34,494 nucleotides of DNA from positions 1-34,494 of the IMG/VR virus record IMGVR_UViG_3300036944_000036; one strand, written 5' to 3'. Origin of the DNA: a virus. Below the pieces are notes generated by a model. It ran no database searches. It was given only the letters and a program-made list of their open reading frames with translations, and had not been told where the DNA came from. The position numbers and the translations under genes were made by a program. Below are positions 22,250 through 23,189 of the stretch, one piece after another (position 1 is the first letter of the stretch; every line of letters begins with the position of its first letter).

Positions 22250-22291
22250 TTATGCACCTGTATAAAATCCTGACGGGTATGTCAGTAAGAT

Positions 22292-22312
22292 AGATATTAA
22301 GGTATCTAAACA
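22292..22312. promoter_or_regulatory. operator copy 1 at the main leftward promoter
   Basis: AGATA (22292-22296), six bases, then TATCT (22303-22307) and AAACA. With one more base on each side it is a perfect TAGATA/TATCTA inverted repeat. The site covers the -10 and spacer of the leftward promoter, so a bound repressor would block it. It differs from the copy at 20028-20048 at one base only. Confidence 0.75.
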
Positions 22313-22322
22313 GATAAGTCAA
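22294..22322 (-). promoter_or_regulatory. leftward sigma70-type promoter
   Basis: On the minus strand the -35 element is TTGACT (22322-22317) and the -10 is TAATAT (22299-22294), separated by exactly 17 bases. This is the best promoter match seen in the control regions. It would start RNA shortly before 22285 and drive erf, ssb and the genes beyond. The operator overlaps it. Confidence 0.75.
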
Positions 22323-22342
22323 CACATACAAAACCTCATCTG

Positions 22343-22355
22343 TTAAGCTATCTAA
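22343..22355. promoter_or_regulatory. partial operator next to the repressor start codon
   Basis: TTAAGCTATCTAA is identical to the right part of the copy at 20034-20046. It ends one base before the ATG of the repressor gene. The left half-site is changed (ATCTG in place of AGATA). Binding here would block the repressor's own expression. Another AGATA half-site lies at 22312-22316, so the gap holds an array of half-sites. Confidence 0.6.
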
Positions 22356-22356
22356 C

Positions 22357-22572
22357 ATGAATACAACAGAAATTATCCAAACATTAGGTGGCACATTCGC
22401 TGTAGCCAAGCTCTGCCGTGTCAGTCCACCAGCTGTATCGCAATGGCGCAACAATGGTTTGCCTGGTGATAAATTAGTGTTGTTGGCTGCCGAGCTTGAA
22501 AAGAAATCAAACGGTAAGTGGTCAAGAAAAGAAATCCCCAACTGGCAACAAATATGGCCTGAGTTGCATTAG
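22357..22572 (+). CDS. Cro/YdaS-like repressor
   Basis: This 71-aa protein has a helix-turn-helix at about residues 12-34 (GTFAVAKLCRVSPPAVSQWR) with the Ser-Pro-x-Ala-Val-Ser-x-Trp recognition helix typical of Cro/YdaS-type proteins. It is encoded divergently from the recombination genes, the usual place for a phage switch. It is the only clear candidate to bind the repeated operators. There is no ribosome site before ATG 22357, and the operator abuts it. No CI-like partner or integrase is present. Confidence 0.82.
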   Translation: MNTTEIIQTLGGTFAVAKLCRVSPPAVSQWRNNGLPGDKLVLLAAELEKKSNGKWSRKEIPNWQQIWPELH

Positions 22573-22698
22573 ACTGATTAAGCCTTTAGCAAGCATGAAA
22601 CAAACAATGATAAGGGTCGTGTTTCACTAGGTTAGCTTTAGACCTTGACACATCGGAAAGACGGTGGCAGAATTGAATTGTTGTCGTGGAAAACAACT

Positions 22699-22771
22699 AA
22701 GCCGTTTAAGTCTATGCCTTGCCCCAAAATTTAGGGGTTTCCACCAAGGTATAGATTTAAGCGGCTTTTTT
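22699..22771 (+). terminator. 23-bp-stem intrinsic terminator or RNA hairpin
   Basis: The arms 22699-22721 and 22745-22767 pair over all 23 positions in plus-strand RNA, three of them as G-U pairs. The loop contains a second small stem (CCCC 22722-22725 with GGGG 22734-22737). Six T residues follow (22766-22771). In minus-strand RNA the three wobble positions would be A-C mismatches and no U-run follows, so the element works on the plus strand. It would end repressor transcription; its length is unusual for a simple terminator. A short GTTGT/ACAAC hairpin lies just before it (22680-22697). Confidence 0.8.
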
Positions 22772-23068
22772 ATTGTTCAAGATAACTGTCAGGGCGCATT
22801 AGCTAACATGGTAGCCACCAGTACCCAGAACAGGCTGAGTAAAAGAATAAAGTTGTATCCCGTGTGACCCGCACGCCCTAGTAGAGAAATCGAACAGGAT
22901 ATAGACAGAGTTTGGAAACAAACTAAAACCATTTACTCTAGGTATTGATCTTCTACAGCTGCAAGGACTGCTACTGTTTTAGGGAATCTAGGGGTGGGGT
23001 GAGATGCCTGCCATAAACCTAACAAGGTACAGGTCTGTCGTAAAGGATTTATCCTCAACTACTACGGT

Positions 23069-23089
23069 GGGTGGGTATAAGGGTAGGGG
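23069..23089 (+). other. G-quadruplex motif
   Basis: Four G-runs of three or more lie in 21 bases: 23069-23071, 23073-23075, 23081-23083 and 23086-23089, with loops of 1, 5 and 2 bases. This meets the usual pattern for a stable intramolecular quadruplex in the plus-strand DNA or RNA. A second G-rich patch with three runs is at 22982-22999. Both lie upstream of the small plus-strand genes. Confidence 0.65.
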
Positions 23090-23189
23090 AACTATATTTA
23101 AAATAAACAGAGTAAGGGTTATCACTAAGATAAATACCTCTTGTGCATTGTGTTTAGTTAGCTTAATGTGATGCTTTTATGGAGAACAT

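Follow-up and report, generated by a model that had tools for sequence, protein, structure and literature searches.

A phage leader RNA that ends in a long terminator hairpin and carries covarying loop-to-apex complementarity

A hairpin with a stem of 23 bp followed by a U-run, at positions 22699-22771 of a phage genome, raises the question of whether it only ends a transcript or belongs to a larger regulatory RNA. The hairpin lies in the window, that is, the whole 34,494-nt stretch of DNA analysed here (IMG/VR virus record IMGVR_UViG_3300036944_000036), which comes from a freshwater phage. The features to which the text refers are the following, all on the plus strand.

22357-22572, plus strand: gene for a Cro/YdaS-like regulator upstream of the element (PF14549, E 2.6e-7)
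22645-22673, plus strand: sigma-70-type promoter with TTGACA at 22645-22650, a 17-nt spacer and a TG-extended CAGAAT at 22668-22673; predicted +1 at about 22680
22680-22697, plus strand: P1, the 5′ hairpin, with stem GUUGU/ACAAC and loop CGUGGAAA (predicted folds, covariation)
22686-22692, plus strand: first kissing strand, GUGGAAA in the P1 loop, complement of 22738-22744
22699-22721, plus strand: 5′ arm of P2, the 23-bp terminator stem (predicted fold, covariation, constant length)
22722-22737, plus strand: apical hairpin CCCC/GGGG (from the fold; variable, with one or two larger hairpins instead in relatives)
22738-22744, plus strand: J, the second kissing strand, UUUCCAC, left single at the top of P2 when the terminator is folded (fold, covariation)
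22745-22767, plus strand: 3′ arm of P2 (predicted fold, covariation)
22766-22771, plus strand: U-run of the intrinsic terminator (read from the sequence)
22787-23098, approximate ends, plus strand: Y, a conserved structured RNA directly downstream (plus-strand fold favoured)

The terminator hairpin and its place in a leader

P2 consists of 23 consecutive pairs, from A22699-U22767 through G22721-C22745, with zero mismatches. Three of these are G-U pairs in plus-strand RNA (22705-22761, 22710-22756 and 22716-22750), and at the apex the CCCC of 22722-22725 pairs with the GGGG of 22734-22737. The plus-strand fold of 22680-22790 (111 nt) reaches -50.2 kcal/mol (z = -9.2), a value equalled by 0 of 200 shuffles, compared with -33.4 kcal/mol (z = -4.2) for the minus strand, and the covariance-model score is 96.4 bits on the plus strand versus 43.9 on the minus strand. 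A minus-strand element is ruled out by this weaker fold and lower score. The hairpin described in the earlier note is thus real, with a stability far beyond chance, and its inner CCCC/GGGG stem and the short hairpin preceding it (22680-22697) are both present. The claim that the plus-strand transcript is the folded form also holds, as the plus strand scores far higher and relatives have G-U pairs in the same alignment columns; column pair 36-139 of alignment A1, for example, contains UG 22 times, UA 16 times and CG once.

A stem with G+C followed immediately by a U-run, as expected of an intrinsic terminator, is found in the window and in the aligned relatives, every one of which has a run of at least five T after or overlapping the stem end. 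A terminator scan has no entry for the 22699-22771 hairpin, whose apex is presumably larger than the 8-nt loop that the scan allows. No second copy of the element was found elsewhere in the same genome, nor was a tRNA or tmRNA, and a comparison with all 4227 Rfam families, at the gathering threshold and also at E values up to 5, returned no usable match to the element. An int-alpA RNA (RF02996) scores just above gathering at L002:1228-1294 (minus strand; MW202520).

Relatives were collected with the upstream Cro/YdaS-like gene as query, which gave 80 IMG/VR loci and one GenBank phage, MW202520, and with sequence patterns: the stem pattern matched 80 stretches and two further patterns matched 40, the sets overlapping. 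From these, 58 distinct RNAs were parsed first and 72 later, one of the 72 (L076, minus strand) appearing spurious. They fall into two subgroups that share a common layout and little common sequence, namely Z1, to which the window belongs (alignment A1, 39 sequences), and Z2, to which MW202520 belongs (alignments A2 and A4). Nearly all are metagenome contigs; MW202520, the sole GenBank record, was obtained from spring water. Some loci contain the element but lack a Cro gene immediately upstream, and the whole arrangement of promoter, P1, P2 and loop-to-apex pairing recurs in dozens of phage contigs. One scan for host genomes by the Cro protein produced only L163, a contig that carries the label of a Lentisphaerae MAG and has no match to the element, and plasmid sequences gave no match either. 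The element represents an unnamed family, without an Rfam match, that is widespread in phages. P2 is 23 bp long in 54 of the 72 parsed RNAs and 22-24 bp in 69 of them, which agrees with the view of the earlier note that the hairpin goes beyond an ordinary terminator; it is part of a conserved structured RNA.

The CAGAAT -10 hexamer ends 6 nt ahead of the 5′ hairpin. Of 67 distinct sequences upstream of the element, 52 place their best -10 at a constant spacing from the 5′ loop and 31 contain a perfect TTGACA, so that P1 is predicted to begin at the +1 of the element's own promoter. Downstream of the U-run lies either Y or an ATG. All 23 Z2 members have an ATG no more than about 25 nt away, often that of a DUF1376 gene; here, the terminator lies between the promoter and a co-directional gene with no intervening promoter, as in a leader attenuator. 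In the window, Y takes the place of the ATG. Y is non-coding, follows the U-run in 49 of 72 cases by motif and is highly conserved in 29 relatives. Its equivalent in L177 is Rfam RF02932 (Betaproteobacteria-1), and the Y of the window may be either a divergent form of it or an unrelated RNA that occupies the same position. No promoter was seen between the element and Y, which is apparently reached only by read-through of the terminator. The space behind the hairpin is too short for a further promoter, so that anything expressed downstream depends on read-through, and by position the element looks like a leader attenuator with predicted termination.

This arrangement bears on a further suggestion of the earlier note, that the hairpin forms the stable 3′ end of a small RNA. 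The hairpin does end a short RNA predicted to start at its own promoter, while the genes or RNAs directly behind it point to an attenuator. In its fuller form, this alternative holds that the element is a free-standing small RNA whose functional product is a homodimer or oligomer, for instance a scaffold or decoy, or whose stem of exactly two turns serves as a length gauge for a dsRNA-binding protein such as RNase III, and that the genes behind it are incidental. It draws on the element's own promoter and terminator, on the prevalence of a stem of 23 bp (22 steps, two A-form turns), on a central mismatch that recurs at positions 11 or 13, and on the existence of RNA-only phage oligomers (PMC12286853). 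An ATG so close behind the U-run in every Z2 case, and Y behind most others, would be unexpected for a free-standing gene; the simplest version, an sRNA with incidental neighbours, is weakened by the Z2 ATG position in particular, and the alternative as a whole is considered improbable.

Several other features surround the element. Between the Cro stop codon and the promoter (22573-22665), the window contains a pseudoknot-like arrangement in which CCUU/AAGG crosses GAAAC/GUUUC, as well as an AGGU/ACCU hairpin that is represented in relatives by AGCC/GGCU and AGUU/AACU. The promoter spacer itself encodes a hairpin, CAUCG-GAAAGA-CGGUG, whose arms covary around a constant GAAAGA loop. In L035 and L071-L079, the region from Cro to the promoter holds an inserted block with long inverted repeats, GUUGGUAUGU...ACAUACCAAC, which is likely another structured RNA, and in L060 a homing-endonuclease-like open reading frame (5214 onward) directly follows the Cro gene and replaces the RNA region. 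A different structured RNA with a U-run, termed W, replaces the element behind the same promoter slot in L037 (5214-5390), L041, L072 and L074, and carries its own long-range complementarity, GCCCUAAUAAGG/CCUUAUUAGGGC. Palindromes resembling TTAAGnTAnCTwA lie at 22290-22360, before the Cro gene, and at 23150-23170, before the downstream operon, and are possible Cro operators.

Pairing between the 5′ loop and the terminator apex

The most informative feature of the element was overlooked in the first reading. The P1 loop CGUGGAAA ends in seven bases that can pair without mismatch with UUUCCAC (22738-22744), the sequence of J, which is left single between the long stem and the apical CCCC/GGGG hairpin. 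In A1, every cell (100%) of this loop-J helix is paired; of the six pairs, five have changed on both sides, and zero G-U intermediates are seen. Both-side changes also occur in three of six pairs of P1, which is paired in 96.6% of cells, and in 14 of 23 pairs of P2. Over the whole of A1, 97.1% of cells pair, versus 83.9% after shuffling and 38-47% when the columns are slid by one to three. Compensating changes, which the earlier note had proposed looking for in homologues, are thus abundant, and the structure and covariation of the element are firm.

Among the 58 distinct RNAs first parsed, the loop occurs in about 20 versions, and every one is matched perfectly by a complementary J strand of 7-9 nt; L128 also keeps such a pair, GTGGAAGA/TCTTCCAC, although automatic parsing returned a chance match there. 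The match between a loop and its own J strand averages 7.9 nt, compared with a mean of 5.5 and a maximum of 6.3 when loops and apical strands are re-dealt among the RNAs, which never reach the observed fit; the counts are drawn from related sequences, and the shuffle results are not to be read as probabilities. An accidental match between loop and bulge is excluded by the re-dealing test together with the covariation in A1. In the Z2 RNA L237, a G-U replaces one Watson-Crick pair of the kissing helix. Z2 also possesses a second pairing, between the P1-P2 linker and the loop of the apical hairpin, which is present in 12 of 12 distinct combinations (own match 6.4, permuted maximum 6.0).

These results bear on the plainest reading of the locus, an ordinary strong terminator with a chance loop-bulge match. 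Its stem and U-run do form a textbook intrinsic terminator, but the pairing is kept in every relative across about 20 different sequences, a second pairing exists in Z2 and the stem length is constant. Among the alternatives, this is the only one contradicted by the data, and it is regarded as extremely improbable. The earlier note had also entertained a target for dsRNA binding; such a role, or one for RNase III, is possible, but the key feature is the loop-to-apex pairing and not dsRNA as such.

Changing specificity and the geometry of the contact

The letters of the pairing change quickly and in step. In pairs of RNAs whose P2 stems differ by less than 3%, the kissing strands diverge by 15.4% versus 1.0% for P2 (0.154 and 0.010), and the changes are always compensated; on near-identical scaffolds the kissing positions thus change at about 15 times the rate of the stem without losing their match. 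Specificity differs in 18 of 41 such pairs, as between L024 and L026, which have identical P2 stems and three compensated kissing-pair changes. The scaffold tree needs at least 12 changes of specificity, and the sole contig with two elements carries two different types. Apical hairpins diverge by 11.7% in the same near-identical pairs, and part of the speed of the kissing strands may therefore reflect a generally variable apex; the P1 loop side sits in the 5′ hairpin, away from the apex, yet changes in step. A similar pattern could arise if the choice of pairing letters were weakly constrained. Nevertheless, matching letters that change fast but together suggest an RNA switch that recognises its own copies, and the diversified specificity is taken here as the best evidence for such self-recognition.

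Whether the two strands meet within one molecule or between two depends on P2. In the window, the P1-P2 linker leaves P1 1 nt from the base of P2, and J lies at its top, so that a zipped P2 of 23 bp would separate the partners by approximately 60 angstroms, as estimated from A-form geometry, a distance too great for them to pair in the same molecule. Twenty-two steps make two full turns of A-form RNA, and thus both ends of P2 face the same side. Both the loop and J stay exposed in the terminator fold, and a nested fold containing the loop-J pairing costs 12-28 kcal/mol relative to it, the nested model being an approximation. The distance, the constant P2 length, the same-side ends and the exposure of both partners together favour, on modelled geometry, a loop-J contact between two molecules rather than within one.

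The opposing view is a co-transcriptional antiterminator acting in cis, in which the P1 loop of a single molecule takes J before the 3′ arm of P2 exists, zipping of the P2 base is delayed and the polymerase passes. Folding of nascent-RNA prefixes indeed predicts the loop-J pairing in the minimum-energy structure of 52 of 54 RNAs as soon as J has been transcribed (in the window, at prefixes of 66-69 nt), and pairing within one molecule could thus occur during transcription. Moreover, the full P2 and the loop-J pairing are mutually exclusive in one molecule, as in a switch, and the downstream ATGs lie right behind the U-run. Against this, the energetic advantage of 12-28 kcal/mol belongs to the full-length terminator fold, antiterminators normally overlap the strands of their terminator whereas here both partners are exposed in the terminator fold, and neither a constant P2 length nor a rapid change of specificity would be expected of a purely cis device. 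The cis reading is accordingly considered unlikely, though it merits weight.

A possible self-recognising attenuator

It is proposed, with about an even chance of being correct, that the element is a self-recognising attenuator, in which released RNA would bind transcripts of its own type while they are still being made and change the level of read-through. The element would form the 5′ leader of a phage transcription unit. RNA polymerase would start at approximately 22680 and transcribe the P1 hairpin and then the 23-bp P2, which would terminate most transcripts at 22771, while the remainder would run on into Y in the window or, in relatives, into a protein-coding gene. Once complete, at about 92 nt, the RNA would expose two mutually complementary strands, the P1 loop and J, held roughly two helical turns apart by the zipped P2, such that pairing would take place between two copies. 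The partners could be two released RNAs, forming a reciprocal dimer, or a released RNA and a nascent one. In the latter case, the released copy would shift how frequently the terminator is passed, resulting in concentration-dependent feedback restricted to RNAs of the same type, much as if an antisense RNA of the immunity or copy-control kind were directed against itself. Dimerisation alone, with no regulatory role, is also possible.

The closest functional relative of this proposed attenuator would be the CI RNA of the satellite phage P4, an immunity RNA which terminates transcription ahead of P4's own replication genes (PMC4825925). In P4 (with seqA and seqC), as proposed for the element, a leader-derived RNA pairs with the same leader and causes premature termination before replication genes (PMC4825925), and the element is likewise complementary to its own leader. 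The two differ in that the complementary strands of the element are a 5′ loop and an apical strand in one intrinsic-terminator hairpin, its specificity is strongly diversified and no processed CI-like RNA is known for it. In the plasmid antisense systems (RNAI/SLI of I-complex plasmids, pT181 and pIP501), loop kissing sets specificity, as proposed for the element, and in plasmid copy-control RNAs a few loop changes on a constant scaffold give new compatibility groups (PMC10724649). Those systems use a separate antisense RNA from the opposite strand, whereas the element carries both partners on one RNA, and no minus-strand promoter-like site, as in the convergent arrangement of pT181 and pIP501, was found near 22700-23000.

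GOLLD and ROOL are phage non-coding RNAs whose covarying loop-to-junction pairs proved to be intermolecular (PMC12286853), and the element shares such pairs, though here the trans contact is predicted. With approximately 92-145 nt, the element is far shorter than GOLLD and ROOL (about 660 to more than 800 nt) and, unlike them, has an intrinsic terminator at its 3′ end, immediately followed by a further gene or RNA; the GOLLD and ROOL covariance models of Rfam gave no match to it. HK022 putL is likewise a structured RNA, and it lies immediately behind an early phage promoter (PMC9378689). The HK022 put sites form two stem-loops that make the polymerase ignore terminators, whereas the element is the terminator itself, and only the position relative to the promoter is comparable. 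The pRNA of phi29 is a small phage RNA that multimerises via complementary loops. The element differs from it in its terminator and leader position and gives no sign of a packaging role, and the phi29 pRNA model, among all 4227 Rfam families, did not match it.

The strong covariation makes the structure of the element nearly certain ahead of any experiment, and it offers a small, tractable case of covarying loop-to-junction contacts, which may be intermolecular as in GOLLD and ROOL. It is possible, though still rather doubtful, that the element defines a new class of regulatory RNAs in phages, with terminator, antisense RNA and target united in a single short leader whose copies would kiss at both ends of a two-turn helix, and with the roughly 20 specificity types acting like immunity or compatibility groups among related phages. 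If the pairing occurs in trans, phage transcription would be under the control of a compact natural set of mutually orthogonal RNA-RNA recognition pairs; the element would supply ready-made orthogonal attenuator pairs, and RNA-mediated competition between related phages would become directly testable.
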